This document shows positions 9,283 to 55,326 of a stretch of 64,000 nucleotides of DNA, piece by piece; within the stretch, counting starts at the first letter, position 1, and each line of letters begins with the position of its first letter. The stretch is taken from assembly GCF_022227765.1 (NCBI RefSeq), contig NZ_JAJMLZ010000011.1:1-64000 (forward strand). The letters run 5' to 3'. A model generated the notes under the pieces. It had not been told where the DNA came from. It did no database searches and was given only the letters and a program-made list of their open reading frames with translations. Position numbers and translations under genes: made by a program. Source of the DNA: Ectothiorhodospira shaposhnikovii. GTDB lineage: Bacteria > Pseudomonadota > Gammaproteobacteria > Ectothiorhodospirales > Ectothiorhodospiraceae.

Positions 9283-9304
9283 AAGGCTTGGCGGGAGTAG
9301 TTCA
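9200..9304 (+). ncRNA. Probable omega RNA/right end of the IS element
   Basis: In this family the guide RNA (omega RNA) overlaps the 3' end of tnpB and runs to the right end of the element, with the guide taken from the flanking DNA. Here the region includes a bulged hairpin at 9270-9293 (CGCCATAGCC with AGGCTTGGCG) and ends GGGAGTAGTTCA at about 9304. The limits are estimated from family knowledge, not from a promoter or structure calculation. Confidence 0.4.
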
Positions 9305-9408
9305 TAGCGAGTTCGAACGCCGCTATCATCCTGCGCAGCATCAATCCTTCCTGCACTGGATCGGTTTTTCGGGTGATGAAAGCCGGGCGCGAGAGTGACA
9401 GCGATAGC

Positions 9409-9429
9409 ACGCCGCGCAAAGCGCGGCGT
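9409..9429. repeat. Perfect 9-bp inverted repeat
   Basis: ACGCCGCGC-AAA-GCGCGGCGT lies between the IS element and suhB. No T-run follows on either strand, so it is not a standard intrinsic terminator, though it could still act as one for suhB on the minus strand. The remaining sequence at 9305-9529 holds no gene I can support. Confidence 0.5.
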
Positions 9430-9529
9430 ATCGAGCCATTTGGAAGTCCTGGTATGGAATTGACCGAGGATCAGGAAGATCGGGGGGTATTCGAGGAACG
9501 GGCTTCTCGGCCGATAAACCCGTGCAATT

Positions 9530-38064: not shown

Positions 38065-39243
38065 ATGCCTGCCGCCTACTGGAAACTTTCCAGCTTCTAT
38101 TTTTTCTATTTCGCCAGTATCGGCGCCTTCATGCCCTACTGGGGGCTGTATCTGAACGAGCAGGGGTTCTCCGCCGGACAGATCGGTGAGCTGATGGCCA
38201 TCGTGCTGGCCACCAAGATCATCGCCCCCAATGTCTGGGGCTGGGTGGCGGATCATACGGGGCGTCGCACCCTAGTCATCCGCATCGCCGCCGCCCTGGC
38301 CATGCTGTGCTTTTCCGGGCTGCTGTTCTACAGCGGCTACTGGTGGATTGCCGTGGTGATGGCCTTGTTCAGCTTCTTCTGGAACGCGGCCTTGCCCCAG
38401 TTCGAGGCCACCACCATGAACCACCTGGGCAAGAGCACCCATGCCTACAGCCGCATCCGGCTCTGGGGGTCCATCGGTTTCGTGCTCTCCGTGGGTTCCC
38501 TGGGGGCGGTGTTCGAGCGGGTGGATGTGGCTGTCCTGCCCTGGATCGTGCTGGCGCTGCTGGGCTTCATGTGGCTGAGCACCCTGCAGGTCCGTGACGG
38601 TCAGGCGCCGGTGCACGAGTCTGCCCCCGTCTCTATCTGGTCCACCCTGTCCAGTCCGGCGGTGATCCTGCTGCTGGTGGCCTGTTTCCTGATGCAGGCC
38701 AGTCATGGCCCCTATTACGCCTTCTTCACCCTGTATCTGGAACTCCACGGCTACACCCGGACCATGGCCGGTTATCTCTGGGCCCTGGGGGTGCTGGCGG
38801 AGGTGGGCGTGTTCCTCATGATGCACCGGTGGCTGCCCCGTTTCGGTGCCTGGCCGTTGCTGGCGGTGGCCATGTTCGTCACCATGGTGCGCTGGGCTCT
38901 GCTGCCGCTGTTCGTGGACAGCCTGCCCATCATCATCCTGGTGCAGCTCATGCACGCGGCCAGTTATGGGCTCTATCACGCGGCCGCCATCTCTCTGGTG
39001 CACCAGTTCTTCGTGGGGCGCCAGCAGGGCCGGGGGCAGGCCTTGTATTCCTCCCTGAGCTTCGGCATGGGCGGGGCCATCGGTGCCCTGATCAGCGGCT
39101 ATGTCTGGGATGGCCTGGGGCCGGCCTGGGTCTATGTGATGGCCTCGGTGATGGCGGGTCTGGGCTGGCTGGCCGCCATGGCCGGCAGCCGGGCCTGGAA
39201 GGCCGCCTGGGGGCGTGCCCCATCTTCCCGAAGTAATCATTAG
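38065..39243 (+). CDS. MFS transporter, MFS_1-like/HcaT type
   Basis: A 392-residue major facilitator with about 12 transmembrane segments. FYFFYFASIGAFMPYWGLYL at the start and VWGWVADHTGRR (loop 2-3 signature) match the nucleoside/3-phenylpropionate permease branch (PF12832). The substrate cannot be told from sequence. It follows aroC by 34 bases and may be cotranscribed. Beyond its stop lie 144 bases (39244-39387) with no gene seen. Confidence 0.85.
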   Translation: MPAAYWKLSSFYFFYFASIGAFMPYWGLYLNEQGFSAGQIGELMAIVLATKIIAPNVWGWVADHTGRRTLVIRIAAALAMLCFSGLLFYSGYWWIAVVMALFSFFWNAALPQFEATTMNHLGKSTHAYSRIRLWGSIGFVLSVGSLGAVFERVDVAVLPWIVLALLGFMWLSTLQVRDGQAPVHESAPVSIWSTLSSPAVILLLVACFLMQASHGPYYAFFTLYLELHGYTRTMAGYLWALGVLAEVGVFLMMHRWLPRFGAWPLLAVAMFVTMVRWALLPLFVDSLPIIILVQLMHAASYGLYHAAAISLVHQFFVGRQQGRGQALYSSLSFGMGGAIGALISGYVWDGLGPAWVYVMASVMAGLGWLAAMAGSRAWKAAWGRAPSSRSNH

Positions 39244-39387: not shown

Positions 39388-41028
39388 TCATCGAAACAAC
39401 GTGGGGCCCGCAAAGAGCGCCGCCCCGATAAGAAGGGTCAGCACCAGCAGCGACACGCCCGCGGTAGGCCAGTCGCACAGGCGACGTTCCACGCGTTCGA
39501 TCACGTTTGCGATGACGCGGCCGGCGCGTGCGGTTACGCTCCCGAGCACCAGGATATCCCCTTCCGGCACGCGCGGCAGGGCCGCGCCGAAACGGCGCAG
39601 GGCGAGTACAAGGACGCTACCAAGCAATACCGGCCAGGCGGCGGCCCAGAGCGCCTTGGGGACGAGGCTCTGCGCGGCGGTAACACCCACGAGTGTGGGG
39701 GCCAGCGCCCAGGGCAGGGCCACGGCCAGGAAAGCCATCAGTAGCCAGGGGATCAGCAGACCAGCCTTGGCCCGGGCCACCGGGGACCCGGCGCGGGTGT
39801 CGGCGAGCCGGAACAGGAAATGCAGCATCAACAGGGTACTGCCCGCCGCCGCCACGGTGACGAGGGTCGCAACGAGCCCGTCCCCCAGCGGCGTCTTGGC
39901 GGCGAGTTTGGCCAGGGCCCCTCCCGTGAGCGGCAGACCGCCCAGCGCGAGCGCCAATAGCCCCGCGGGAAGCACCAGTGTCCAGGCGCGTCGCCCCCCC
40001 GAATGGGCGGCAACGCCGACGGAAAGAAACAACGCCCCCTTGACCAGCACGTGATGCGCGGCGAGGAAGGCGGCCGCCATGGTAGCCGAGGCATTGCCCG
40101 TCGCCAGACCCATGCCGAGCACCGTCGCCACGCCGCCCATCTGGCTCACGCTGGAGTAAGCCAGCACCGTCTTCGGGTTCTGTTGGGTGATGCCGACGAG
40201 CACGGCGTAGAAGGCGGTCAGCAGCCCGATCACGGTCAGCGCCGTGCCCCAGCCGGTCAGGCCCGGGTCGAGAGGCAGGAACAGAATCAACCCGATCACG
40301 CCCGCCTTGATGATCGCACCACTGAGAACCGCCGAGGCCGGCATGGGGGCCGCGGGGTGTGCGATCGGCAACCAGACGTGTAGAGGCAGCAGGCCTGCCT
40401 TCAAACCGAAGCCCGTGATCAGCAGCCCGACGATGTAATGTCGGGCGGGATTTTCGGGCAGTGCCGCGACGACGTCCTGAATCGCGATGCTGGAACCCGG
40501 CGCATACGCGGCGAGCAGCGCGAAGGCAAGCAACAGGCAAACCTCCCCGAATACCGCGAGGCCGATATAGAGCACGCCGGCCCTGCGAGCCGGGGGGGTA
40601 TCGTCGTGGGCGACCAGGCCCCAGGCGGCCAGGCTCACGATGGCAAAGGCGATGTAGAAGGTCAGCAGATCGCCCGCAACGAATACCCCGAGGCTGCCCA
40701 CCTGCGTCAGCAGCCACCACTGGGCAAAACGCGCGGCGTTTGGACCCTTGCCCATGTAGCTTCGTGTATAGATCCCCGCGATCATCCAGAGCAGCGAGGC
40801 TGCGCCGAGCAGCACGGCTGCAATGGGATCGAGTGAAAAGGTCAGATTGAGGCGGGAATCGTCCAGCACCAGCGGTGTGGCGTCGTGGGCCAGCAGGGCC
40901 GCGGCCAGGCCGGGCAGCGGAGCCAGTCCGAGCAGCGCCGGCATGCGGGCGCGAACGCGCGGGGACAGGCAGGCCGCCAGCATCGCGAGCGGGACGGCCC
41001 AGGTGGCGATCAGCAGCAGGCTATTCAC
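39388..41028 (-). CDS. Proton-conducting antiporter-like membrane subunit (MrpD/NuoL family), second copy
   Basis: A 546-residue polytopic protein of the proton-conducting transporter family (PF00361). The conserved transmembrane Lys sites are visible: FGLKAGLLPLHVWLP, AIIKAGVIGLILF and HHVLVKGALFL. In contrast, the helix that normally holds the conserved Glu reads LLTFYIAFAIVSLAAWGLVA, with no Glu, so its ion pathway may differ. Its start overlaps the stop of the preceding subunit (ATGA). It is the last gene of the seven-gene run. Confidence 0.8.
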   Translation of the reverse strand: MNSLLLIATWAVPLAMLAACLSPRVRARMPALLGLAPLPGLAAALLAHDATPLVLDDSRLNLTFSLDPIAAVLLGAASLLWMIAGIYTRSYMGKGPNAARFAQWWLLTQVGSLGVFVAGDLLTFYIAFAIVSLAAWGLVAHDDTPPARRAGVLYIGLAVFGEVCLLLAFALLAAYAPGSSIAIQDVVAALPENPARHYIVGLLITGFGLKAGLLPLHVWLPIAHPAAPMPASAVLSGAIIKAGVIGLILFLPLDPGLTGWGTALTVIGLLTAFYAVLVGITQQNPKTVLAYSSVSQMGGVATVLGMGLATGNASATMAAAFLAAHHVLVKGALFLSVGVAAHSGGRRAWTLVLPAGLLALALGGLPLTGGALAKLAAKTPLGDGLVATLVTVAAAGSTLLMLHFLFRLADTRAGSPVARAKAGLLIPWLLMAFLAVALPWALAPTLVGVTAAQSLVPKALWAAAWPVLLGSVLVLALRRFGAALPRVPEGDILVLGSVTARAGRVIANVIERVERRLCDWPTAGVSLLVLTLLIGAALFAGPTLFR

Positions 41029-42509
41029 AGGGCGCGTCCGATGTGGACGATGGACAGGGAGGCCAGCGGCACCAGGCCGACGCCGATCGAGAGCAGCGCG
41101 AGGCCGAGCACTAGAACTTCCCCGCGCCGGTCCACCGGGGCGCGCAGGGGCAGCGCCCTATCCGTCTGGGCCAGGGCACGGGAAAGTACGCGGAACAGGT
41201 AACCACCGGTCAGCAGCCCCCCCGAGACGATGATCAGGACCCACCACCACTGCGCACCCTCGATGGCGGCTCGCAGCAGCAGCCACTTGGCCATGAAGCC
41301 GCCGCTTGGCGGCAGACCCATCAGCGAAAGGCCGGCCAGCCCGAACGCAAACAGGGGGATGGGCAGTACGCGTCCGATGCCCTCCATGTCCAGGATGCGG
41401 TCATGTCCGATCGTCTTCGTGATCAGACCCGCCGCCAGACACATCGAGGCCTTGGCCAGCGCATGCGACACCGCTTGCAGGATCCCGCCCGTCCAGGCCG
41501 CGGTACCGAGTTGGGTGGCACTTGCCAGCGGGAAGGCCAGAAACAGATAGCCGATCTGCGCCACCGTCGAGTAGGCGATCAGCATCTTCAGTCGCACCTG
41601 CCTGAGGGCAAGCACACTTCCCACCAGGATCGCGGCCGCCCCCAGGGCCCCGAGCAGTTGAGCCGCCATCGGCGTCGCCACGCCGGGTAGCGCATCCACC
41701 CACACCCGGATGATGAGCACGAAGGAGCCCTTCACCACCAGTCCCGAGATCAACGCGCTGGCGGCCGCCGGGGCACCGGCATGGGCGGCGGGCAGCCAGA
41801 TGTGCAGGGGGAACAGGGCGGTCTTCGTGAGTAGCCCCACCGTCATCAGTGCGGCTGCCAGCTGGGTCGTGGGTTCGACACGGACGCGCTCGGCGAGCAG
41901 GGCGATATCGAGCGTGCCGTAGGACCCGTAGAGCAGCGCCACGCCCAGCAGGAACAGGGCGGAGCCCAGCAGCGAGAAGAGGAGATAACGCAGGGCGGCG
42001 GTCAGGGCCTCCGCGCGTCCGCTCAGACCGACCAGCGGGACGGCACCGAGGGTGAGCAGTTCCAGTGCCACGAACAGGGTGAACAAATCCGAAGCGAGAA
42101 AGACCGCGTTGAGTGCGGCCCAGATCGTCAGCAACAGGGTCCAGAACACCCGCGGTGCCCTGGTCTCGGGTATTCCACGTGGCATGCCGAAATCGGAACG
42201 GGCATAGAGTCCGGCCGCGCCGATCACGACCGCGGTGGTGGCCAGCATCACGATGGAGAGCCCGTCGGCACGTAGCAGCACACCCAGGGGGGGCGCCCAG
42301 CCGCCCAGCACATATTCCAGTGCATCGCCGCGACGGATCACGGTGGCGGCGATGGCGACGACAATGCCGAGTTCGAGCGCCAGCAGCACGAGCCCGATCC
42401 GTTCCGCATGCCGCCCCCCCAGTACCAGCAGCAGCGGGATGCCGAGTACCGGCCCGAAGATCGCAAGGACCAGCAGGAAACCCTCGGGTGTCGCGGTCAC
42501 GGGACTCAC
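41025..42509 (-). CDS. Mrp-type antiporter subunit D-like membrane protein
   Basis: A 494-residue polytopic protein of the MrpD/MnhD/NuoM-N family. The conserved Glu lies in FTLFVALELLTLGAVPLVG; the Lys residues in LLTKTALFPLHIWLPAAH and HALAKASMCLAAG are present, so the full proton path seems kept. The start overlaps the end of the MrpC-like gene by four bases. It presumably forms one membrane complex with the three flanking small and large subunits, exporting a monovalent cation against protons or capturing proton force; the ion is unknown. Confidence 0.85.
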   Translation of the reverse strand: MSPVTATPEGFLLVLAIFGPVLGIPLLLVLGGRHAERIGLVLLALELGIVVAIAATVIRRGDALEYVLGGWAPPLGVLLRADGLSIVMLATTAVVIGAAGLYARSDFGMPRGIPETRAPRVFWTLLLTIWAALNAVFLASDLFTLFVALELLTLGAVPLVGLSGRAEALTAALRYLLFSLLGSALFLLGVALLYGSYGTLDIALLAERVRVEPTTQLAAALMTVGLLTKTALFPLHIWLPAAHAGAPAAASALISGLVVKGSFVLIIRVWVDALPGVATPMAAQLLGALGAAAILVGSVLALRQVRLKMLIAYSTVAQIGYLFLAFPLASATQLGTAAWTGGILQAVSHALAKASMCLAAGLITKTIGHDRILDMEGIGRVLPIPLFAFGLAGLSLMGLPPSGGFMAKWLLLRAAIEGAQWWWVLIIVSGGLLTGGYLFRVLSRALAQTDRALPLRAPVDRRGEVLVLGLALLSIGVGLVPLASLSIVHIGRAL

Positions 42510-42853
42510 GAATCAGCGTCCTTGCCCTTGCCGGAGTCTTTTGGCTCGGGGCGTAGTGTCACCCGGCCGGTCTCGGCGAACAGCCGAAGCATGATCGCCA
42601 CGGCGAGTGCGGTGCCGGCGAGTGCCACGACGATGGCGATGATCACGAAGGCCTGGGCCACCGGGTCCGCGGGGAACCCGGCTGTCGCTCCTCGTTGGGT
42701 GACCACGCCGAACACGAGAAACAGGCCACCGCCCAGCACGTTGAATGCGAGGATCTTGCGTAGTGGATGGGGCTGCACCACAAGCCCGTAGAGGCCCACG
42801 CCCACCAGCGCGGCGGCGAGCAACCCATACAGCGTGGTGATGGTCGGCGTCAC
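42506..42853 (-). CDS. Mrp-type antiporter subunit C-like protein (NuoK family)
   Basis: A 115-residue three-helix membrane protein of the MnhC/MrpC/NuoK family: VGLYGLVVQPHPLRKILAFN, then GGGLFLVFGVVTQRG and DPVAQAFVIIAIVVALAGTA are family blocks. GTG 42853 overlaps the preceding stop (GTGA). A charged cytoplasmic tail follows the last helix. Confidence 0.87.
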   Translation of the reverse strand: MTPTITTLYGLLAAALVGVGLYGLVVQPHPLRKILAFNVLGGGLFLVFGVVTQRGATAGFPADPVAQAFVIIAIVVALAGTALAVAIMLRLFAETGRVTLRPEPKDSGKGKDADS

Positions 42854-43269
42854 CGTTCGGCACGCTTCGCGTCTTGCGCCGCGGACATGCCGGCCGGGAG
42901 CGGAGAGGGCGACTGCCTCGGCGGACCCTCCAGCAGCATGGCGAGCGCGACCGTCATCGAAACCGCGATGCAAAGCACTGCGATCAGACTGCGCATGGCC
43001 GGTCCGGGACGCTCCAGAACGGCGGCTTCCTCACCGGCACGCATGCGGGCGGCGACAGATAGCAGCAACACGCCGGTCACGACGGCCACCGCTGCCTGGG
43101 TCAGGGCCACCCCCACTGCGCCCAGGCGCACCCAGACCAGCCCCAGCAACAGGCCGAAGGCGATAAAGCCCACCGCCGCCGCAAAAGTGGCCCGCGCGAC
43201 ATGGATCCAGATGGCGGCAACCAGCACCCACATGATCAGTCCGAGCTCGATGAACCCCGGACCGGTCAT
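42850..43269 (-). CDS. MbhD/MrpA-C-terminal-like (DUF4040) membrane subunit
   Basis: A membrane protein of about 139 residues. The segment RLGAVGVALTQAAVAVVTGV resembles the conserved APDVAxTEAAVGAG block of the MbhD domain (PF13244), which in standard Mrp systems is part of the C-terminal end of MrpA. A further helix (LIAVLCIAVSMTVALAML) follows, as in MbhE. ATG 43269 (MTGPGFIELGLIM) is used; GTG 43284 adds five residues. Here the module is free-standing, and no full MrpA is present. Confidence 0.7.
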   Translation of the reverse strand: MTGPGFIELGLIMWVLVAAIWIHVARATFAAAVGFIAFGLLLGLVWVRLGAVGVALTQAAVAVVTGVLLLSVAARMRAGEEAAVLERPGPAMRSLIAVLCIAVSMTVALAMLLEGPPRQSPSPLPAGMSAAQDAKRAER

Positions 43270-43291
43270 GCGGCGCAGGACCACTGACGTG

Positions 43292-44365
43292 TCATTGACT
43301 CAACATCCCGGTGCGATAGGGGCTGATCACCATGCCGGCCTGTAGCCGGCCGACACCCGCGGAGACGATCCTCTGGCCACCGTGCAGCCCCTCCAGCACG
43401 ATCACCGTGTCGCGGTCGGCCTCGCCCAGGGTCACCACTTGGCGCTCGATGACGTAGGTCTCCGGATCGACCGCCCAGACGAAAGCATCCCCCGCCTCGG
43501 TTTCGCCCACCGCGCTCAGGGGAACACGTAATACGGACCGAAGGTAGACGGTGGGGCGCGCGTGGACGGTCGCGGTCATGCCGGGCAGCAGATTGATGTC
43601 CTCGGGCCGGTCGATTGCCAGGGTCACCCGGAAGCTCTGGGTGACGGCGTCGGCCCGGGTGGCGATCTCGGTGACCCGGGCGGGAAATGCCCGGTCGGGG
43701 GCCGCGGCGAAGACGGCCTCGGCGACAGGCCTATCGCGCGGCAGTTCGCTCAAACGTCCCAACACCCGTTCAGGGAGATCGACGACGACCTCCAGTGCCT
43801 CGGATGCTTCCAGCAGCAGTACCGGTTGATCGGCCCGAACCCTCTGGTGGTTTTCGATCAGTGTGGCGGCGACGATGCCGTCGAAGGGGGCTGTGAGCGT
43901 TGCGTCCTCAAGGATCTTGCGCGCCTGCGCGGTGCGCAGCGTCGCGATCTCGAATTCGGCCCGCTTCCGGTCCACTTCGGCCGGGGTCACCGGCGACACG
44001 GGCGAGCCGGCCAGTCTGGAGAAGCGCAGGAAATCCGCTTCCGCAAGCGCCAGCCGGGCTTCCTCCAGGGCAACGCGGTTTTGCAGGTCGCGCGGATCGA
44101 GCTGAGCCAGCAGTTCGCCGGTGGCGACCCGTTGCCCGGCGACTACCGGCCGTTCGCTCAGCAGCCCGGACACGGGGAAGGCCAGCGCCGAACGCCGGGT
44201 CGCCTGTACCCGTCCCGGCAGTTCCAGGATTTCCGCGTCAACCCCTACCACAAGCGTCTGCACCAGGGGCGCCCGCCCGGTCTCATCCAGGAGGGTCCGG
44301 GCGGCGGTCTGCGCCTGGGCCGCCCCGGCGTGCAGCAATACCAACACCAGCAGGATCATTCTCAT
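43292..44365 (-). CDS. RND efflux periplasmic adaptor (HlyD/MFP family), second copy
   Basis: A 357-residue periplasmic adaptor with a cleavable signal peptide (MRMILLVLVLLHAGAAQAQ). The split lipoyl/biotinyl halves are seen as GRVQATRRSALAFPVSGLL...GQRVATGELLAQLDP and ATLTAPFDGIVAATLIE, around an alpha-hairpin, with beta-barrel and membrane-proximal parts after. ATG 44365 has GAGGAG upstream and sits ten bases after the RND gene. It should join the pump to an outer-membrane channel not encoded here. Confidence 0.9.
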   Translation of the reverse strand: MRMILLVLVLLHAGAAQAQTAARTLLDETGRAPLVQTLVVGVDAEILELPGRVQATRRSALAFPVSGLLSERPVVAGQRVATGELLAQLDPRDLQNRVALEEARLALAEADFLRFSRLAGSPVSPVTPAEVDRKRAEFEIATLRTAQARKILEDATLTAPFDGIVAATLIENHQRVRADQPVLLLEASEALEVVVDLPERVLGRLSELPRDRPVAEAVFAAAPDRAFPARVTEIATRADAVTQSFRVTLAIDRPEDINLLPGMTATVHARPTVYLRSVLRVPLSAVGETEAGDAFVWAVDPETYVIERQVVTLGEADRDTVIVLEGLHGGQRIVSAGVGRLQAGMVISPYRTGMLSQ

Positions 44366-44375
44366 GTTCCTCTCC

Positions 44376-47300
44376 TCAGGACGCCGGCACCGCGGGACCG
44401 GGGTCGACGGGCTCGTCCTTGGATCGCGACGGCACCCGGTACAGGGTTGCGTACAGCACCGGCACCACGACCAGCGTGAGTACCGTGGCAAAGCTGAGTC
44501 CGCCGATGATGGTCACGGCCATGCCGACGAAGAAGGGATCCTGGAACAGGGGCAGCATGCCCAGCACCGTGGTACCCGCGGCCATCACCACCGGTCGGAT
44601 ACGGCTGACACCGGCGTTGAGCACCGCATCCAGGGGCATCCTTCCTTCGCGCAGTTCCAGGTTGATCTCATCCATCAACACGATGGCGTTCTTGATCAAC
44701 ATGCCGGACAGTGCGAGGAAGCCCAGCAGCGCCATGAAGCCGAACGGCTCGTTGGCCAGGAGAAGCCCGACGGTGACACCGATCACGGCGAGCGGCACCG
44801 TGAGCATGATCGCCAGCGGCTGGCGCAGGTTATTGAACAGCAGCACCAGGATCAGGACCATCAGCAGTAGCGGCACCGGGATGCCGGCGGCAATGTAACG
44901 TTGGGCACGGGCCGAGTCCTCGAACTCGCCGCCCCACTCCAGGCGGTAGTCCGGCGGAAGTTCCAGCGCGTCGATCCGGGGCTTGACCGCGGCCAGCAGG
45001 GTACTGGCCAACTCGCCGGGAAAGGCGTCGGCTCGCACTTCAATGGTGCGCACGCGATCGCGCCGCATGATGATCGGGTTGTCCCACTCCACCTCGAAAC
45101 CACTGACGACCTGCCGTAGCGGGATCGCCTGTTCGGCTGCCGGACTCCAGATCTGCACGTCGCCGAGACTGGCGACGTCTCGACGTTCATCCTCCGGCGC
45201 CCGGGAGATGATGGGAATCAGGTCGTCACCCTCGCGATAGAGACCGATCATGTTGCCCTCGGTCGCGCGCTGCAGGGCACGCGCCAGCTGGGGCCGATCG
45301 ATGCCGGTAAGCCGTGCCTGCGCCTCGGAGAACTGCGGCGCGAGCACCATCGTCTGCTGACGCCAGTCCGTGGTTGCGATCTGTGCCAGTCCGGAATCAG
45401 CGATGATCCGTTCGGCCTGCGCCGCCAGGTCACGCAAGACCTCCGGGTCCGGACCACTGAACCGCGCGCGGACCTTGAATGTGCCGCCGGGTCCCAGCTG
45501 GAACAGGTTCACGACCGGCTCGCCGTTTGGAAGCGTGTCCCGGATGAAGTCGTAGACATCGAGTGTGAGGTCACCGATCCTGCGCCGGTCATCCACCTCG
45601 ACAATCAGCTGACCGTAGCTGCGGTTGGGGTCTTCCGGGGTGTAGGTCAGCTGGAAGCGCTGGGCGCCGCTGCCGACGAAGCTGGAGACGGCGACCACCT
45701 CTTCCCGGGAGAGCAGGTAGTCCTCGATGACCTTCATGTCCGCCGAGGTGGCGTGGATGTCGGCCCCCTGCGGCAGGTAGTAGTTGACCATGAACTGGGG
45801 CTGGGTCGATGGCGGGAAGAACCCTTCCCGAAGCATGCCGAAGCCGATGATGGCCAGGACGAGGAGGCCGACCGTCGCGGCCAGGGTCAGGTAACGGACC
45901 CGGATGCAGAGCACCAGGAATCTGCGATAGGTTTGGTAGAACCGGCTTTCACCGCCGGAGGACGCCTTTTCCGGCTTCAGGAACAGGTGGCAGAGCAGCG
46001 GGGTCAGGGTCAGGGCCGTGATCCAGCTCAGCAGCAGCGAAACCAGCATCACCACGAACAGGGAACGGGTGTACTCACCGGTGTTGTCGGCGGAGAAGCC
46101 GATGGGGACGAAGGCGAGCACCGCGATGCCGGTCGCGCCGAGCAGGGGCATGGCCGTCTGCGCGACGATCTCCTTTGCGGCCTTGATCCGGTCCATGCCC
46201 CGGGTAATGCGCACCAGGATCCCGTCCGTGACGACGATGGCATTGTCCACCAGCATGCCCAGCGCGATGATCAGTGCACCCAGCGAGATGCGTTGCAGGG
46301 TGATGTCCAGCGCATACATCACGATCAGCGTGCCAAGGATGGTCACCAGGAGCACGACGCCGATGATGAGGCCGGAGCGCAGCCCCATGAATACCAGCAA
46401 CACGACGATGACGATGGCCACGGCCTGGGCGAGGCTGACGATGAAGTTGTTGATGGCCTCGGTCACCGCGCGGGCCTGGAAGGCGATCACGTCGATCTCC
46501 ATGCCGACGGGTGTGAGCGGCGCAAGCTCCGCCAGTCGCTGTTCCACCAGTTCACCCATCACCACCACGTTCCCGCCCGAGACGGTGGAGATGCCCAGTC
46601 CGATCGCCGGCTTGCCGTTGAAGCGCATCAGGGCCGTGGGCGGGTCCTGGTAGCCGCGGGTGACGGTCGCCAGGTCACGTACCCGGATCAGCCGCCCCTG
46701 GCCGGTGGGATCCGGAATCAGTACATTGGAGATGGCCTCCACGGAATCGAACTCGCCGGTGGGCCGCACGACGATCCGGCTACCCCCGACGCTGACCCGT
46801 CCGGCATCGGTCACCGTGTTCTGTTCGCCGATGGTCCGGTACACGAGTTCCAGCGGGATGCCCAGTTGGGCCATTCGGGCGCGTGAAACCTCCAGGAAGA
46901 TGTGCTCGCGCTGAACGCCGTTCAGCGCGACGCTCGCAACACCGGGGACTTGCAGGAGTTCGCGGCGCAACAGGTCGGCGTAATCCTTCAGCGCCGAGTA
47001 CGTGAAGCCCTCTCCGGTGATGGCCAGGTACACACCAAAGACATCCCCGAAATTGTCGTTCACGACGGAGGGGAGCACCCCGGGTGGCAGGCGGGATTGA
47101 GCGTCGCCGACCTGGCGTCGGAGTTCGTCCCAGATCTGCGGCATTTCCGCGGCCGTATAGGCCTGCTGGATCTCCGGTGTGATGATGGACAGCCCGTCCG
47201 TGGACTGGGAGGTAATCCGCCATAGCTGCGGCATCTGCTGGATTGCGGTCTCCAGCACGTCCGTCACCTCGCGTTGGACCTCCTCGGCGCTGGCACCCGG

Positions 47301-47456
47301 ATAATGGGTCACGACCTTGGCCACCTTGATCGTGAACTCGGGGTCCTCCAGCCGCCCCATGTTCTCGTAGGCGAAGATGCCGCCGCCGATGGTCAGGAAG
47401 GTGATGAACAGGACGATGACTTTCTTGTGAATCGACAACTCGGCGATGTTCATCAT
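44376..47456 (-). CDS. RND-family efflux pump inner-membrane transporter
   Basis: A 1026-residue hydrophobe/amphiphile efflux-type RND permease: one N-terminal helix (KKVIVLFITFLTIGGGIFA), two large periplasmic loops and two sets of membrane helices. The helix-4 region GALIIALGMLVDNAIVVTDGI carries the proton-relay Asp position (usual DD reads LVDNAIVV here, as in the MexK/AcrB-distant subgroup). It begins at a start overlapping the upstream adaptor stop. Likely exports drugs, dyes or other amphiphiles; the substrate is unknown. Confidence 0.92.
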   Translation of the reverse strand: MMNIAELSIHKKVIVLFITFLTIGGGIFAYENMGRLEDPEFTIKVAKVVTHYPGASAEEVQREVTDVLETAIQQMPQLWRITSQSTDGLSIITPEIQQAYTAAEMPQIWDELRRQVGDAQSRLPPGVLPSVVNDNFGDVFGVYLAITGEGFTYSALKDYADLLRRELLQVPGVASVALNGVQREHIFLEVSRARMAQLGIPLELVYRTIGEQNTVTDAGRVSVGGSRIVVRPTGEFDSVEAISNVLIPDPTGQGRLIRVRDLATVTRGYQDPPTALMRFNGKPAIGLGISTVSGGNVVVMGELVEQRLAELAPLTPVGMEIDVIAFQARAVTEAINNFIVSLAQAVAIVIVVLLVFMGLRSGLIIGVVLLVTILGTLIVMYALDITLQRISLGALIIALGMLVDNAIVVTDGILVRITRGMDRIKAAKEIVAQTAMPLLGATGIAVLAFVPIGFSADNTGEYTRSLFVVMLVSLLLSWITALTLTPLLCHLFLKPEKASSGGESRFYQTYRRFLVLCIRVRYLTLAATVGLLVLAIIGFGMLREGFFPPSTQPQFMVNYYLPQGADIHATSADMKVIEDYLLSREEVVAVSSFVGSGAQRFQLTYTPEDPNRSYGQLIVEVDDRRRIGDLTLDVYDFIRDTLPNGEPVVNLFQLGPGGTFKVRARFSGPDPEVLRDLAAQAERIIADSGLAQIATTDWRQQTMVLAPQFSEAQARLTGIDRPQLARALQRATEGNMIGLYREGDDLIPIISRAPEDERRDVASLGDVQIWSPAAEQAIPLRQVVSGFEVEWDNPIIMRRDRVRTIEVRADAFPGELASTLLAAVKPRIDALELPPDYRLEWGGEFEDSARAQRYIAAGIPVPLLLMVLILVLLFNNLRQPLAIMLTVPLAVIGVTVGLLLANEPFGFMALLGFLALSGMLIKNAIVLMDEINLELREGRMPLDAVLNAGVSRIRPVVMAAGTTVLGMLPLFQDPFFVGMAVTIIGGLSFATVLTLVVVPVLYATLYRVPSRSKDEPVDPGPAVPAS

Positions 47457-48595
47457 CAGTCCCTCGTCCGGACTCGTTCGCCGTCGGCGAGATAGGCGGC
47501 ACCGGCGGTGACCACCCGATCACCCTCCGACAGGCCCTCCAGCACCTGAACGGTACGGCCGCTCAGGCTCCCGATCCGCACGAACCTTCGCTGCACCGTG
47601 GACTGCTCAGGGTCCAGCAGCCAGACGAAGGATCTGCGATCGGATGTGGCCTGGAGTGCCTCCACCGGGAGAAAGTGCATGGAACGGATATCCACGATCT
47701 CGTCATGGGGCACGAAGCTCGCACTCATGCCGGGGAGGATGTTGGCCCCTTCCGGAGCGGGCAGGCCGAGGACCACGCGGTAGGTGTTGGTGCGGGGATC
47801 CGCGCGCGTTTCCAGCTCTTTCACCGAGACCGGGAACTGTCTCCCCGGCAGTACTTCGAAGCTGACCGTTCCGACCTCGGTGCCGAGCAGGGATCGGCCG
47901 GCCGGCGGCAACCGCACCACGTCGAGTTCGGGTAGCTGGATGCGAACCTCAAGCCGGCTGATGTCTTCGAGCAGCAGGATGGGTTCGCCGGCTTGCACGG
48001 TCTGAAAATTGTCGATGAGGCGGCGGGCGACGCGGCCCGGGAACGGGGCCAGGAGTTCGGTATCCTCCAGGCGCTTTTGCGCCAGCGCCAGTTCGGCGTC
48101 GGCCACCTGGAAGCGCGCGCGGGCCTGGTCCCGCTCCGCCGCCGTCACTACCCCGGATACGAAGGCTCTTTCGATGCGGTCCAACCGGGATCGGGCCTCG
48201 TTCCGGTCCGCCCGTCGCCCGTCGCGCTCGTTCACGAAATCGCGGGGGTCGATCCGGGCCAGCAGCGTTCCCGCCTCGACGAACTGTCCCTCCTGGATGG
48301 GGAGATCGATCAGCGGTCCGGAGACGATGAAGGCGAGTTCGGCACGCTGATCCGCGCGCACCTCACCGGGAAACTGTCGGCGCGCCGGCAGTTCGGGAGG
48401 CCCCAGCAGTACCGAATCCACCAATCGCGGAGGCGCCCCCGTCAGGTCCTCGGGGGGACCTCCGCAGGCGGTAAGCAGGACCAGTGCCGCAAGCGCCGGA
48501 ACCAGAGCCCATCCGATCCTTGCGGAAGACTCCGGTACCTGACCAAGGGTCGGAGTGAACCTGACGATCCGCCACCATACTGAACGCAAGCGCAC
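47456..48595 (-). CDS. RND efflux adaptor lipoprotein (HlyD/MFP family), first copy
   Basis: An adaptor with a lipoprotein signal ending LVLLTACGGPPEDL. It has the family blocks RRQFPGEVRADQRAELAFIV, FVEAGTLLARIDPRDF and LEDTELLAPFPGRVARRLID. GTG 48595 with GGGAGG upstream gives a plausible signal sequence; the frame is open to ATG 48661, and which is used is uncertain. The stop overlaps the start of the RND gene, so the two are coupled. It is the first gene of the seven-gene minus-strand unit. Confidence 0.85.
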   Translation of the reverse strand: MRLRSVWWRIVRFTPTLGQVPESSARIGWALVPALAALVLLTACGGPPEDLTGAPPRLVDSVLLGPPELPARRQFPGEVRADQRAELAFIVSGPLIDLPIQEGQFVEAGTLLARIDPRDFVNERDGRRADRNEARSRLDRIERAFVSGVVTAAERDQARARFQVADAELALAQKRLEDTELLAPFPGRVARRLIDNFQTVQAGEPILLLEDISRLEVRIQLPELDVVRLPPAGRSLLGTEVGTVSFEVLPGRQFPVSVKELETRADPRTNTYRVVLGLPAPEGANILPGMSASFVPHDEIVDIRSMHFLPVEALQATSDRRSFVWLLDPEQSTVQRRFVRIGSLSGRTVQVLEGLSEGDRVVTAGAAYLADGERVRTRD

Positions 48596-48744
48596 AGCAC
48601 CCTCCCTCGGCCCGCCGAGCGGTTTTCCCCTTCCCGGAATGTCGCACAACCGATGCCGCAATGATAGTCTCCCGCTTCAGAAAAGGGCGGGCATTTGAAC
48701 GTGAAATCCGTCCAGCCCACATCCCGTTCCGGCGCGAGACCGAC

Positions 48745-50724
48745 GTGACTCTGATCCGGCTGATGGTCGTGTACATAACGCTGTTCGCATTGGCGGGATG
48801 CGCCACGGTCCGCATCGATGACGCCGATCCGCGGGCCGCCTTCGCGGAGCGGCGCGGCGACTACCTGACGACCGGCGTCTTCAGTGTGGAAACGCGCAGC
48901 GTCCTGTTCTTGTTGGGGAGCGAAGCACCACGCTGCGAGCGCTCGCCGTCCGATTGCATCTCACTGCTCTACCAGGTGGGTGACCAGGACACGGAGAGCA
49001 TTCTGGCGGTGCTGTCCGAGTTGTCCCTCGCGAAGGCCCTGCGGACCGAACAGGCGGCCAGGGGCGCAGATTCCGACGAGGTCATCGCGGACTACCTGGA
49101 TGCAGCACGTTTCGCGTACGCCTTCCTGTTTCTCGACGCCCGTCCACCGGAGGAGCGCGCGCTGGAAAACCGCCAGACGCGGGTGCGTGACTACTATAAT
49201 TTCAGCGTCGAACGTGTCGCTACATTGGTATTTCAGCGCACGCGAAGGGCGGATGCACCCGTGATGCCGGTGGAGGGTACGGTCCGGGATATCGGTCAGT
49301 GGAGCCTCACGATCGGGCGGGTCGAGCCGCGGTTGCAGAGAGGCACGGAACGTCTCGCATCCATCGTCTCGCCCACGCGCCTGCAGATCCGCGGCCTCCA
49401 GAACACCTACCGGAGAGATGGCCTGGGCGGCGAACTGGTCGCCGTGTGGACCCCGGACATCTCCGGCCAGCATGATCTCCCGATGAGGGATATCGGCTTT
49501 TCTCCCGCCACGGTCCTGCTGGAGTTCGAGGGCGAAGGACTGGATCAGGTGCTGTCCCGACGGGAGGCACGACTTCTCATCCTGGACCCCAACCGGAGCA
49601 GGACCACGTGGGTCCGTGGTCAGCATGTGCCGGTGGCCGCGAATTTCAGCGCCTCTTATGCCCTGTGGCTGTCCCGTGCGGGTTTCCGTCGCCAGGGCCT
49701 GCTCAGCACGCTCGGTCGCGATACGTCTCTGATGCACCCGCGTATCCATCTCATGCAGCCCTATGACCCCGATCGGTTTACCGTGATCATGCTGCATGGG
49801 TTGGCGAGCAGTCCGGAGGCCTGGGCCAATCTTGCGAACGAAGTGCTTGGTGACGCGACCCTGCGCGACCATTTCCAGATCTGGCAGGTGCATTACCCGA
49901 CCAATCTGCCCATCGCGATCAACCATCTCGAGATCCGGTACGCCCTGGAACGGACCCTGGCGGCGGTCGATGCCCGGGGGCAGGCCAGGGCCGGTCGGGA
50001 CATGATCCTGATCGGACACAGCATGGGTGGGGTGATTGCGCGTTTATTGATCCTGGAGGGCAGCGAGGATATCTGGATGGAGACGCTGGGGGTCCCCGAG
50101 GATTCCGACAGGCGCGCGGCGCTGGCGCCCCTGGAACCCTACATTCGCTTCGAGCCGCTGGAAGGCGTCAGCCGTTCCGTCTTCCTCGCCAGCCCGCATG
50201 CCGGCACGCCGTTCGCCGGCAATTGGCTCAGCCGATTCGTCACCAGGCTGGTGCGCCTGCCGGCCGATGTGATCCTCCGTATCGCGGCGGTTGCGGAGGC
50301 GATTGCACAGGATCTGCCGGAGAGCGCCGAGAGGTTGAGGGGCACGCCAACCTCGATCCATCAACTCGATGCCGCAAATCCCTTCCTGCAAGCGACGTCA
50401 CGGCTCGGCATCGCCCCCGGCATCGACTACCACTCCATCATCGCCCGCAACGATCCCTCGGACCCGCCCGAGAATTCCAGCGACGGCGTGGTCCCGTTCG
50501 CCAGCGCCTATCTTCCCGGCGCGGCCAGCACGCTGCTCGTGAATGCGGGGCACAGTGTGCAGCAGACCCCCGAGGCCATCGTCGAGATCCGCCGCATTCT
50601 CCATCTCCATCTTGTGGAGCACGGTCTCATCAAGCCCCCGGAAGTACGACATCTCCACCTGGAGGGACCGGAACGGGGCCCACGGCCGACACGGGATCCG
50701 GATACCGGTATCCCGGTGCGATAA
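48745..50724 (+). CDS. Lipoprotein alpha/beta hydrolase (lipase-like)
   Basis: A protein of about 659 residues with a lipoprotein signal (VVYITLFALAGCATVR). The C-terminal half is an alpha/beta hydrolase: oxyanion region FTVIMLHGLASSPEAWANL, nucleophile elbow LIGHSMGGVIARLL, an Asp candidate in DGVVPFASAYL and a catalytic His in NAGHSVQQTPEA. The N-terminal 300 residues are unassigned. GTG 48745 places the start just before the signal; ATG 48661 would add 28 basic residues. It is divergent from the efflux unit and about 170 bases before the patatin gene. Confidence 0.85.
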   Translation: MTLIRLMVVYITLFALAGCATVRIDDADPRAAFAERRGDYLTTGVFSVETRSVLFLLGSEAPRCERSPSDCISLLYQVGDQDTESILAVLSELSLAKALRTEQAARGADSDEVIADYLDAARFAYAFLFLDARPPEERALENRQTRVRDYYNFSVERVATLVFQRTRRADAPVMPVEGTVRDIGQWSLTIGRVEPRLQRGTERLASIVSPTRLQIRGLQNTYRRDGLGGELVAVWTPDISGQHDLPMRDIGFSPATVLLEFEGEGLDQVLSRREARLLILDPNRSRTTWVRGQHVPVAANFSASYALWLSRAGFRRQGLLSTLGRDTSLMHPRIHLMQPYDPDRFTVIMLHGLASSPEAWANLANEVLGDATLRDHFQIWQVHYPTNLPIAINHLEIRYALERTLAAVDARGQARAGRDMILIGHSMGGVIARLLILEGSEDIWMETLGVPEDSDRRAALAPLEPYIRFEPLEGVSRSVFLASPHAGTPFAGNWLSRFVTRLVRLPADVILRIAAVAEAIAQDLPESAERLRGTPTSIHQLDAANPFLQATSRLGIAPGIDYHSIIARNDPSDPPENSSDGVVPFASAYLPGAASTLLVNAGHSVQQTPEAIVEIRRILHLHLVEHGLIKPPEVRHLHLEGPERGPRPTRDPDTGIPVR

Positions 50725-50893
50725 CTCCTTGCGAAGCCGTTCTCTCGCCCCCGGGCGGGAATCGCTCCGCAATGCTTCCGGGGCATTCACCAGAGGCAAG
50801 TGTCGATCCGGTCCGGTTTTCTGTATCCGACGCTGGACACGGTGCCCATGTTGCGGTATTAGCCAGAGCTTCGGGGGTCAAGGGAGACTTCGG

Positions 50894-51988
50894 ATGAGAA
50901 GGGCCGGGAAGGATATAAAAACGGTGGATCTCGCCTTGCAGGGGGGCGGCGCTCACGGCGCACTCACCTGGGGGGTGCTGGACCGGCTCTTGACGGATGA
51001 GCGAATCGAGATCGCCACCATCAGCGGCACCAGCGCGGGTGCCATGAACGCGGTGGTCATGGCCGATGGCCTGGATCAGGGGGGGCGCGAGGGAGCGAGG
51101 GAAGCGCTTGCCGGATTCTGGAAGGCGGTCAGCGACGCGGCGCGGCTCTCCCCGATACAGCGGTCGCTTTGGGACCGAATGACCAACCGCTACAGCCTGG
51201 ATCACTCGCCCGGTTACCTCTTTTTCGAACATCTCACCCGGCAGTTCTCGCCCTACGAACTGAATCCCCTGAACATCAATCCGTTGCGTGACCTCGTCGC
51301 TTCGCGGGTGGATTTCGAACGGGTCAACCACTGCAAGGATCTCAAGGTCTTCGTGACCGCCACCAATGTGCGCACCGGCCGCGGCCGCACCTTCACCCAG
51401 CCGGATCTCACGGTGGACTCGGTGATGGCTTCCGCCTGCCTGCCCTTCATGTATCAGGCCGTGGAGATCGACGGTGAGGCGTATTGGGACGGCGGCTATA
51501 TCGGGAACCCCGCGCTCTACCCGCTGGTCGAGGATCGCGCCACGCGCGATCTGATCGTGGTTCAGATCAATCCACTGGTAAGGGAAGAACTACCGCGCAC
51601 CGGCCGCGAGATCATCAATCGACTCAACGAGATTACCTTCAACGCCAGCCTCATCAAGGAACTTCGCTCCATCGAACTCCTGCACCAGTTGATCGAGGTC
51701 GAGCAACTCGAATCCGAGCGTTACCGCGACATCTACGTGCATCTGATCCATGCCCACGAAGAACTCAAGAATCTGGATGCCTCAAGCAAGATGAACGCCG
51801 AATGGGGCTATCTGACCCATCTCAAGGAACGCGGCCAGGCCTGGGCCGGGAGCTTCCTGGAACGTCATTTCGATGATCTGGGCAAGCGTTCCACCTTCGA
51901 TCTGAAGAGCCTTTTTACCGACAGCTTCAGGCCACCGAGCCTCGACACATCCACCTCATCCGACCAGCCAACGGAGCCGAAGCCATGA
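50894..51988 (+). CDS. Patatin-like phospholipase
   Basis: A 364-residue lipid acyl hydrolase. Oxyanion motif LQGGGAHGALTWGVL, nucleophile motif ISGTSAGAMNA (GxSxG) and catalytic Asp in YWDGGYIGNP are all present. ATG 50894 has GGGAG six bases upstream. It has no signal peptide, so it acts in the cytoplasm, on phospholipid or possibly polyhydroxyalkanoate granules. Its stop overlaps the permease start, so the two are translationally coupled. The preceding 169-base gap has no gene. Confidence 0.9.
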   Translation: MRRAGKDIKTVDLALQGGGAHGALTWGVLDRLLTDERIEIATISGTSAGAMNAVVMADGLDQGGREGAREALAGFWKAVSDAARLSPIQRSLWDRMTNRYSLDHSPGYLFFEHLTRQFSPYELNPLNINPLRDLVASRVDFERVNHCKDLKVFVTATNVRTGRGRTFTQPDLTVDSVMASACLPFMYQAVEIDGEAYWDGGYIGNPALYPLVEDRATRDLIVVQINPLVREELPRTGREIINRLNEITFNASLIKELRSIELLHQLIEVEQLESERYRDIYVHLIHAHEELKNLDASSKMNAEWGYLTHLKERGQAWAGSFLERHFDDLGKRSTFDLKSLFTDSFRPPSLDTSTSSDQPTEPKP

Positions 51989-53430
51989 TGGGGATCCTGG
52001 TTATCGTCATCGCACTGGGCCTGCTGATGTATTTGGCCTATCGAGGCGTCAGCCTCCTGATCCTTGCGCCGGCGCTGGCCACCTTCGCGGTGGTGGCAAC
52101 GATGGATGGCCCGGTGCTTGCGAGTTACACGCAGATTTTCATGGGCTCGGCGGGCGGCTTCATCACACTGTATTTCCCCGTATTCCTGCTCGGCGCCGTG
52201 TTCGGCAAGTTGATGGAGGATTCCGGCAGCGCCCGGGTGCTTGCCGACGCCATCATCGCCAAACTGGGCAGCGGCCAGGCGATCCTGGCCGTGGTCCTGT
52301 CCTGTGCCGTCATGACCTACGGCGGGGTGTCCCTGTTCGTGGTGGCCTTTGCGGTCTACCCGATTGCGGCGGCCCTGTTCCGGCAGGCCGATATCCCCAA
52401 GCGATTGATTCCCGCAACCATCGCCCTGGGCGCCTTCACCTTTACCATGACGGCGCTGCCGGGTACGCCCGCCATCCAGAACGCCATCCCGATGCCGTTC
52501 TTCGGGACCTCTCCCTTCGCGGCACCGGGGCTTGGAATCATCACGGCGCTGGTGATGTTCAGCCTCGGCATGCTCTGGCTCAATTACCGCGCGCGCAAGC
52601 TGGCCGCGGAAGGCTACGGCAACCACCCGGACGCGGAATTCGTCCCGAACAAGGCGTTGCGGGAGCGCGCGGCGGGTGAGGGTTTCGACCTGATGGAACT
52701 TCCGGTGGAGGAGCGTCCTGTGAGTCGGCCACCGGTATTCGTCGCCGTTCTGCCGCTGGTGCTGGTGATCGCGATCAACCTGTTGTTCACTTTTGTGATC
52801 ATCCCGAACATGGACACGGACTTCCTGGCCCTGCCGCTGTACGGCGAGACCAGCATTGATGAGGTGCGCGGGATCTGGTCGGTGACCGCGGCCCTGGTGC
52901 TTTCCCTGTTGGCGGTGATCGCCCTGAACTGGAAGCGGCTGCCCAAGCTCACGCAGTCCGTCGACAATGGTGCCAACGCCTCACTCCTGCCGATCTTTAA
53001 CACCGCCAGTCTGGTGGGCTTTGGGGCCGTGATCGCCTCGCTGGGTGCCTTCGTGCTGATTCGTGATGCGGTCGTCGGCCTTGGGGGCGATAACCCGCTG
53101 ATCTCGCTCGCGATCGCCGTGAACGTGCTGGCGGGAATGACCGGCTCGGCCTCGGGCGGGATGAGTATCGCGCTCTCGACCCTCGGTGATACCTATCTGG
53201 AGATGGCTTACGCCCAAGGGATCAGTCCGGAATTGCTGCACCGCGTTACTGCAGTGGCTACGGGTGGACTGGATACGCTACCGCACAACGGCGCGGTCAT
53301 CACCCTGCTGGCCATCTGCGGCCTCACACACCGCCAGGCCTATTTCGATCTGGCGATGGCCGCGATGGTGGCGCCCTTCCTCTCGCTGATTGTGCTGATC
53401 ACCTTGGGGACGTTGTTCGGGAGTTTCTGA
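51985..53430 (+). CDS. GntP-family permease (hydroxybutyrate/gluconate type)
   Basis: A 481-residue membrane protein with about 12-14 helices in the GntP/anion-symporter family. ILVIVIALGLLMYLAYRG opens it, YFPVFLLGAVFGKLMEDSG is the family block, and MTGSASGGMSIAL and DTLPHNGAVITLL lie near the C-terminus. The branch commonly occurs beside 3-hydroxybutyrate or short-chain acid metabolism genes; the substrate is inferred and not shown. It starts four bases inside the patatin gene and ends before a strong terminator. Confidence 0.87.
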   Translation: MMGILVIVIALGLLMYLAYRGVSLLILAPALATFAVVATMDGPVLASYTQIFMGSAGGFITLYFPVFLLGAVFGKLMEDSGSARVLADAIIAKLGSGQAILAVVLSCAVMTYGGVSLFVVAFAVYPIAAALFRQADIPKRLIPATIALGAFTFTMTALPGTPAIQNAIPMPFFGTSPFAAPGLGIITALVMFSLGMLWLNYRARKLAAEGYGNHPDAEFVPNKALRERAAGEGFDLMELPVEERPVSRPPVFVAVLPLVLVIAINLLFTFVIIPNMDTDFLALPLYGETSIDEVRGIWSVTAALVLSLLAVIALNWKRLPKLTQSVDNGANASLLPIFNTASLVGFGAVIASLGAFVLIRDAVVGLGGDNPLISLAIAVNVLAGMTGSASGGMSIALSTLGDTYLEMAYAQGISPELLHRVTAVATGGLDTLPHNGAVITLLAICGLTHRQAYFDLAMAAMVAPFLSLIVLITLGTLFGSF

Positions 53431-53449: not shown

Positions 53450-53491
53450 CAGTCTCCGGAAGCCTGTCACAGGCTTCCGGAGACTGTCTTT
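53450..53491 (+). terminator. Intrinsic terminator after the permease gene
   Basis: A perfect 17-bp stem (CAGTCTCCGGAAGCCTG and its complement) around TCA, followed by TCTTTT. It lies 20 bases after the permease stop and directly before the convergent hydrolase stop. One of the clearest terminators in the window. Confidence 0.9.
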
Positions 53492-55098
53492 TAGTCAAAC
53501 AGTGCGAGCAGGCGTTGCAGTTCGGACTCGCTCCAGCCCTCGGGTTCGGTTAGCGCCAGCCAGGCGTGGATGTAGTCGGTCGGGGCGTACTCGTGCCCGA
53601 ATCCCTTGGGTGCGGTGCCCACCATCATGTCGGCGGCCAGTTGCAGCATGGTCACGATGGGAAACCAGCGCAGATCCGGGGAGACATCCGGGCCGCGTGG
53701 CTCGCGCATCCACTCCGGCTCCTTCCAGGCGGACTCGGGGCTGAAGAAGGTGATCGGATCGCTGGCATACTGCAGAAAGACGATTCGGAATGTTCCCCAT
53801 TCTTCTTTGCCGTGATTGAGCCTCTGTTCCTGATTCATGAACCGGACGACCGACCCGCCTCGGAACTCGGGCAGCCAGGCCGGGGAGCCTGGATCGCGCT
53901 CAGCCGTTACCCTGCGCCATGTCTCGTTGCGAAACGGTGGTCCGCTCCACAGGGCACCGTCGAAGGGATCATTGATGATGTCGAAGAGGTCGAAGGAGAG
54001 ATCGGAGTTGAGCGAACCCAGGCTCAGGCCACGCAGGAACAGCCGCGGCCGGGATTCCGGGGGCAGGGTGCGCCAGTGATGATAGATCTCCGTAAACAGG
54101 GCACGGGCATTCTCCGCCCCATAACCCTGGTCGGTCAGCAAGGTGAGCGGGCTGTTTAAATAGGAGTACTGTGCCACGACCGTGGCGATATCCCCTCGGT
54201 GCAGGTACTCCACCGTGTTCTGTGATGAGGGATCCACCCAGCCCGTGCCGGTGGGTGTCACCAGCAACAGTATGGAGCGATCGAAGCCCCCCGCCCGTTT
54301 CAGTTCTTCCAGTGCCAGGCGGGCCCGTTGCTCCGGGGTATCCGCTGAATTGAGGCCCACGTAAACCCGAATCGGGGGCGGTACCGGTGTGTCGAAGAAA
54401 TCGCTGAGTTCCTCGGCGGTGGGGCCGCCGGCAACAAAACTGCGCCCCTGTCGGCCCAGATCCTTCCAGTTGATCAGCGACTCTTGACTGCCCGTCTGCC
54501 AGGCATGCACGGGATGTGGCAGGTCGGCGTCGATCAGTGCATCCAGTTGCTGGAAGGAACGATCCAAGACACGCAGCGTTGAACTGACCAGCACGCCGTT
54601 GATCACCGTCCAGAACAGAAACACGGCGGCGGTGATGCTGAAGATCTGGGATATGCGGCGCGGGACGTACCGGTGGAGCCTGATGGACAGTGTACGAAAG
54701 ACCCACTTGAACAGACGAGCCAAAGAAAGCATCAGTACAAACACCAGCGCGGCGATGACGCCCAACAGCACCGGCTGAACACCCGCGAGTTCTTCGATTC
54801 CCATCAGTGCGCGGAGGGAGTTCTGCCATTCCGATGCCTGCCAAATGAAGCTGAACGTGATCAGCACGCAGAGCAGGCCCGCAACGACCTGGGTGAATCG
54901 GACCGTCCGCTTGCTCGGGGTTGGCAATTCCAGGTACTTCCAGAACCATACGCCGGCGACACCCAGACCATAACCCGCGGCGAAAGAAAGTCCGGAGATC
55001 ACGCCCTGGATCAGGAACGGGCGTGGTAGCAGGGAGGGCGTCAGCGAAAAGGCAAAGAAGACGGTTCCGACGAGTAGACCCACGACGCTTAGGTACAT
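53491..55098 (-). CDS. Membrane alpha/beta hydrolase family protein (Abhydrolase_9 type)
   Basis: A protein of about 535 residues. The N-terminal third has four to five transmembrane helices (YLSVVGLLVGTVFFAFSLTP, with a SLLPRP motif). The remainder is a periplasmic or cytoplasmic catalytic domain with LFLRGLSLGSLNSDLSF as the likely nucleophile segment, LLVTPTGTGWVDP and FLQYASDPITFFSPE. This matches PF15420/PF10081 from memory. The start is set at ATG 55098 in front of the first helix; the frame extends to 55197 without a better site. No substrate can be proposed. Confidence 0.8.
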   Translation of the reverse strand: MYLSVVGLLVGTVFFAFSLTPSLLPRPFLIQGVISGLSFAAGYGLGVAGVWFWKYLELPTPSKRTVRFTQVVAGLLCVLITFSFIWQASEWQNSLRALMGIEELAGVQPVLLGVIAALVFVLMLSLARLFKWVFRTLSIRLHRYVPRRISQIFSITAAVFLFWTVINGVLVSSTLRVLDRSFQQLDALIDADLPHPVHAWQTGSQESLINWKDLGRQGRSFVAGGPTAEELSDFFDTPVPPPIRVYVGLNSADTPEQRARLALEELKRAGGFDRSILLLVTPTGTGWVDPSSQNTVEYLHRGDIATVVAQYSYLNSPLTLLTDQGYGAENARALFTEIYHHWRTLPPESRPRLFLRGLSLGSLNSDLSFDLFDIINDPFDGALWSGPPFRNETWRRVTAERDPGSPAWLPEFRGGSVVRFMNQEQRLNHGKEEWGTFRIVFLQYASDPITFFSPESAWKEPEWMREPRGPDVSPDLRWFPIVTMLQLAADMMVGTAPKGFGHEYAPTDYIHAWLALTEPEGWSESELQRLLALFD

Positions 55099-55326
55099 TT
55101 GCGGTCTCGCTGAATAGGCAGGGAAAGGGGGCAAGCTGCTTCGACAGCGGTAGTATGCTGTCGGAACGCAGGCAAGCCAACGCCGACTCCATGGCACTCA
55201 ACCTACTCAATGGCGGGTCTGGGGGGCGCTGCTTTACAGCATGCTCGATGATGCAAGCAGTATGACGATCAATCGGGCGAAAGTGGCTCATGGTCGGTAC
55301 AGGAACATTGCATTGCGGGAATGCTC

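Follow-up and report, generated by a model that had tools for sequence, protein, structure and literature searches.

What does an Mrp-type module do when it shares an operon with a proton-driven efflux pump? Complex I is held to derive from Mrp-type modules, and the way in which the proton half of such a module is coupled to its cation or redox half is still debated. We analysed a 64,000-nucleotide stretch of the genome of the purple sulfur bacterium Ectothiorhodospira shaposhnikovii (the window; NZ_JAJMLZ010000011.1, positions 1 to 64,000), in which genes for an RND pump run directly into Mrp-like genes. The features of the locus are as follows.

47456..48595, minus strand: periplasmic adaptor 1, an RND membrane-fusion lipoprotein (TIGR01730, 205 bits; HlyD_3; lipobox LLTAC)
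44376..47456, minus strand: RND permease, MexK/TriC-like (ACR_tran, 537 bits)
43292..44365, minus strand: periplasmic adaptor 2 (TIGR01730, 213 bits; 42% identical to adaptor 1)
43285..43291, no strand: junction between the RND and Mrp halves (7 bp in the window)
42850..43284 (or start 43269), minus strand: MbhD domain plus one helix (PF13244, 40 bits; alignment with the sister species)
42506..42853, minus strand: MrpC/NuoK-like subunit, C (PF00420, 60 bits)
41025..42509, minus strand: MrpD-like antiporter subunit, D (PF00361, 193 bits)
39388..41028, minus strand: NuoL/MrpA-N-like subunit, L (PF00361, 127 bits)
50873..51988, plus strand: patatin-like phospholipase gene, divergent from the operon (PF01734, 82 bits)
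51985..53430, plus strand: GntP-like permease gene, overlapping the patatin gene (weak GntP match)

The initial annotation had described a seven-gene operon on one strand with touching or overlapping start and stop codons. Open reading frames, the sequence and Pfam/NCBIfam matches confirmed all seven head-to-tail genes on the minus strand, from 48595 to 39388, and every junction was an overlap or a gap of at most 22 bp. The stop codon of adaptor 1 overlaps the start of the RND gene (TGATG at 47456), 10 bp separate RND from adaptor 2, the gap between adaptor 2 and MbhD is 7 bp with a GTG start or 22 bp with an ATG start, and the MbhD/C, C/D and D/L junctions are GTGA four-base overlaps. A promoter scan, which has little power in GC-rich DNA, found no sigma-70-like site within the operon, and terminator-like sites inside it did not exceed the shuffled expectation in a scan that is likewise weak in such DNA. 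The seven genes probably form one transcription unit, in which both halves would be co-transcribed. The downstream neighbour (38065-39243) is convergent with the operon, and a divergent plus-strand block of lipase-like, patatin and GntP-like genes lies upstream. The composite operon was found in 3 of the 10 genomes of the genus, its five large genes being 90-99% identical.

The ACR_tran match of the permease spans residues 4-1004, its full length, and the proton-relay residues Asp404 and Lys922 are present together with the motifs GMLVDN, LIKN and RIRP. The nearest solved chains were MexK (9xwg, E=1e-192) and 6vej (E=5e-180), the latter of which we take to be TriC. Two periplasmic adaptor genes (TIGR01730) accompany the permease, and a search of the seven-gene operon revealed no outer-membrane factor gene.

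The Mrp set of the window belongs to a distinct subtype, E-F-G-[MbhD-B fused]-C-D-L, which is without the third antiporter subunit D'. Across 84,980 scanned genomes, this D'-less subtype turned up in Competibacteraceae, Acetobacteraceae, a Thiodictyon MAG, Bosea and other Hyphomicrobiales, where L is 49-61% identical to that of the window. The subtype is uncommon: there were 3 high-scoring genomes among 398 sampled Proteobacteria (window genome excluded), and it occurred in 10/103 genomes of one family (f131) and about 13/149 of another (f95). Further MbhD-bearing loci of the window genome lie on three contigs (C38, C39 and C1), and only that on C38 was shown to be complete, a nine-gene cluster ordered E-F-G-MbhD-B-C-D-D'-L. 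The D' subunit of the window genome is 95% identical to that in a record of Ectothiorhodospira lacustris A-7Y (NZ_JAJNQN010000004.1). A duplication of the C38 cluster was rejected as the origin of the window set, as the two are about 40-50% identical and C38 is of the D'-containing subtype.

No MrpE, MrpF, MrpG or MrpB was found in the window operon, as the initial annotation had noted for E, F and G, and remnants of B in the operon and of G in the sister species show that these genes were lost. In E. lacustris (G004) the MbhD gene encodes a 331-aa MbhD-MrpB fusion, and alignment with the sister species revealed an in-frame deletion of the middle of this fusion in the window and in a second sister species (G002). 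The gene first labelled MbhD-like thus carries an MbhD domain but is in fact the deletion product of the fusion. The spacer between adaptor 2 and MbhD is about 115 bp longer in G002 and G004, where it contains a 39-codon open reading frame, and this stretch was lost in the window. The frame matches the last helix of MrpG; the G004 copy scored z 4.9-13 against MrpG proteins, with the E, F, B and C controls all giving z <1.5, and the G002 copy is more eroded. The main body of MrpA, which had been listed as lacking, is not truly missing, because the last gene, L, is its N-domain equivalent; NuoL corresponds to the MrpA N-domain (PMC7419157). As these relatives show, the Mrp half of the window descends from a complete Mrp cluster.

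In Mrp antiporters, the proton path lies in MrpA-N and MrpD and the cation (sodium) path in MrpBCEFG plus MrpA-C (PMC7419157); Glu687 and Glu780 of MrpA are loading sites, Phe41 of MrpB is a gate, and Asp38 of MrpF also takes part (PMC9568556). A family-invariant glutamate of MbhD (motif PDVALTE) aligns one helical turn from Glu687 and corresponds, by count, to E69 of MbhD in 6cfw. It is Glu in 41/41 complete D'-less and 48/49 D'-containing clusters, and is replaced by Gln in the window, G002 and the alphaproteobacterium Dankookia rubra, and by Ala in G004. A second glutamate (DTxxE), conserved in 41/41 complete clusters, occurs in 0/4 of the reduced ones: the window and G002 have lost it by deletion, G004 has Val in its place and Dankookia has Ala. 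The MrpB gate Phe is likewise present in 41/41 complete clusters and absent from 3/4 reduced ones, and MrpF is absent from all four. In the window D, the TM5 Glu and the TM7, TM8 and TM12 Lys are intact, and the nearest solved chains are 6cfw_H, 6u8y_H and 7qru_D. L as a class (alignment A3) keeps the lysines and has no TM5 Glu, a central residue of MrpD/NuoM; the missing Glu was rejected as a sign of decay, since all class members are without it. The cation-translocating parts have been lost and the proton-path subunits D and L retained. The suggestion that a cation/proton antiporter operates at this locus was not supported, all tested elements of the cation path (E, F, G, B and both Glu) being gone. 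Sodium-coupled transport was unsupported for the same loss, with the proton-path D and L kept, and seems unlikely here.

A nearly identical reduction was found in D. rubra. Its locus L115 reads MFP-RND-MbhD-C-D-L, with only a few bases between RND and MbhD, and E, F, G and the MrpB domain are gone. It shares with the window these gene losses and the Glu-to-Gln change, yet its RND is of a different clade and it has a single adaptor. D. rubra did not group with the window and its two sister species (p = 0.017 for a single clade of reduced sets), and its reduction is independent of that in the window. A part-way stage was seen in G901 (L306), in which E and F are gone, MrpG is cut to 62 codons directly after the RND gene (7101-7289), the gate Phe is Val, and the TM7 Lys of D (8541-10046) is Arg. 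Because its RND is 80-81% identical both to that of Dankookia and to the complete Paeniroseomonas copy, this reduction was probably, not certainly, a separate event.

In the most likely reading, to which we give about an even chance, the operon joins a proton-driven RND pump to a module that conducts protons but has ceased to be a cation antiporter. An assembly of L, D, C and MbhD would then no longer exchange Na+/K+ for H+, would conduct or relay protons, perhaps for the control of pH, and might serve the pump under pH or envelope stress, while tight translational coupling would keep the parts co-expressed. Pump and module may be coupled in function, and they may be in physical contact. A bolder version casts the assembly as a partner dedicated to handling protons, docked with the RND protein or coupled to it energetically. 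It would then be a new member of the complex I superfamily in which an efflux pump replaces the redox or sodium module, and it would have arisen on at least two occasions; this we regard as improbable.

The main alternative is slow decay, in which the Mrp half became dispensable once the RND genes lay directly upstream and was lost piecemeal, so that only the pump matters now. Selection bears on both readings. Across three Ectothiorhodospira genomes, the dN/dS ranges of the operon were 0.06-0.10 (RND), 0.13-0.20 (both adaptors), 0.35-0.66 (MbhD), 0.32-0.45 (C), 0.26-0.29 (D) and 0.23-0.25 (L). The corresponding ranges in the complete C38 cluster of the same species were 0.15-0.24 (MbhD), 0.16-0.24 (C), 0.10-0.25 (D) and 0.12-0.24 (L). 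The Mrp half thus evolves faster than RND (0.23-0.66 vs 0.06-0.10) and its small subunits are weakly constrained, which counts against the proton-module reading, as does the cost that an uncoupled proton path would impose. The higher values of the small subunits favour decay. So do the stepwise losses that the window genus, Dankookia and G901 display, with remnants of G and B and replacement of Glu by Gln or Ala, and the three other MbhD-bearing loci in the genome, one of them a full Mrp cluster. D and L, however, are free of stops and frameshifts in all three species, and their nonsynonymous change is far below neutral (p = 6e-11 and 2e-14, respectively); both are under purifying selection. 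Their key Lys and Glu residues are intact, and the number of invariant sites broken in L is no higher than in complete relatives. D departs from 5-9 of about 80 otherwise invariant positions, a count that no complete relative reaches and a further point against the proton-module reading. Decay of the whole Mrp half is somewhat unlikely in our judgement.

A second alternative is that the two halves are passengers on a stress island moved between species, their nearness reflecting shared regulation or transfer rather than a joint pump-antiporter mechanism. The co-conservation survey proposed in the initial annotation was carried out on loci of at least 14 kb (40 D'-less, 44 D'-containing). RND genes adjoined 30/40 D'-less and 1/44 D'-containing loci (p = 4e-13), although such p-values overstate independence, many of the loci being from species related to each other; about six families show the pairing. 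These counts rule out chance adjacency. Patatin (19/40 vs 0/44), AI-2E permease (18/40 vs 0/44) and GntP-like permease (14/40 vs 0/44) genes showed the same bias. MFP-RND was the commonest neighbour, often overlapping or touching directly before E or the MbhD-B gene, and in many loci it immediately precedes E in the same orientation (L097-L106, L112, L263-L267, L305-L323). In other D'-less loci RND is divergent or follows L, and since the halves have separate orientations in many loci, strict co-transcription is not universal. On a D+L tree, the arrangement with RND directly upstream requires at least five changes. Separate occurrence of the two halves in relatives, which would have counted against the initial annotation, was borne out only in part: unlinked arrangements do occur, but in f131, the best-sampled family, the pump (at least 60% identity) was present in 10/10 genomes with a D'-less L, including a fragmented copy in G573, vs 6/93 others. 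In the RND maximum-likelihood tree, the window pump grouped with gammaproteobacterial pumps not linked to Mrp (G078, G070, G091), and the Mrp-linked alphaproteobacterial pumps formed a separate clade. A single origin from one orthologous RND, represented by a joint clade, was rejected (AU p = 1.4e-7); because the linked pumps fall in different clades, the pairing arose more than once. Window-type RND relatives with Mrp elsewhere were also sought, and none was found in L045-L057. The RND-Mrp pairing is thus real, recurrent and highly non-random.

Passenger linkage is favoured by the recurrence of the same neighbours in shuffled order and orientation, by the patchiness of the module (3/10 species of the genus) and by amino-acid cassettes at such loci. 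A glutaminase and an MFS transporter, often with an asparaginase, lie beside eight D'-less clusters (L093, L099, L100, L101, L104, L106, L264, L277), and arginine deiminase with an amino-acid antiporter-like gene lies at others (L265, L273-L276); both cassettes are absent at D'-containing loci. These ammonia-releasing enzymes look like an acid or nitrogen stress island. The acid-stress role is a lead only, because the glutaminase and arginine deiminase genes are absent near the window and the genus Ectothiorhodospira appears alkaliphilic. Near the window itself, the GntP-like gene has a dN/dS of 0.06-0.08 among Ectothiorhodospira genomes. An alpha/beta-hydrolase gene with a lipoprotein-like start (PGAP1/Abhydrolase_6; 48661-50724, plus strand) lies between the RND operon and patatin and, judged by spacing, is absent from G002 and G004; an Abhydrolase_9 family gene (53491-55197, minus strand) adjoins GntP and is common to G002, G004 and the Bosea D'-less locus L108. 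Against mere linkage stand the place of RND-MFP as the commonest and often overlapping neighbour and the origin of the pairing with two RND clades, and we hold this explanation, like decay, to be rather doubtful.

Finally, a working cation/proton antiporter with its missing subunits supplied from other Mrp clusters would fit the complete cluster at C38 and the two other MbhD-bearing loci, but it is highly improbable: identity between the C38 set and that of the window is only about 40-50%, and because both cation-site Glu were lost within the window's own MbhD-B protein, subunits in trans could not restore the site unless they replaced MbhD-B. The complete D'-less relatives are likely still antiporters; therefore the earlier idea that an antiporter tunes the proton force near the pump may hold for them.

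Natural clusters that shed the cation half and kept the proton half, in parallel and beside a proton-driven pump, offer a ready test of whether a proton half is able to function by itself or to be coupled anew. The repeated co-occurrence of RND, Mrp, patatin and GntP genes further points to a stress module, so far undescribed, in several proteobacterial families, and we found no mention of an RND-Mrp link in the open-licence literature.

Among known systems, the D'-less clusters of Acetobacteraceae, Hyphomicrobiales and Competibacteraceae (L093-L112, L259-L282) share the gene order and the RND, patatin and GntP neighbours of the window, and their L is mostly 46-61% identical to its L; unlike it, they retain the full E-F-G-MbhD-B set, and the RND linked to them is of another clade, 34-35% identical. 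TriABC-OpmH and MexJK provide the nearest solved permeases, and TriABC likewise comes with a pair of adaptor genes (PMC8277102), whereas these pumps have no known Mrp linkage and the window operon is without an outer-membrane factor gene. With Mrp (CPA3, Mnh/Pha) antiporters, which a review divides into groups 1-3 with no mention of RND (PMC5703873), the window shares MrpC, MrpD, an MrpA-N-like subunit and an MbhD domain that corresponds to a portion of MrpA-C, but it is without E, F, G and B, has lost both cation-site Glu, and is joined to an RND pump. D and L best match 6cfw_H and 6u8y_H, and MbhD matches 6cfw_D, as in MBH/MBS and the membrane arm of complex I; in contrast to these, the seven-gene operon carries no redox (hydrogenase or quinone-module) subunits and has a pump beside its proton-path subunits.
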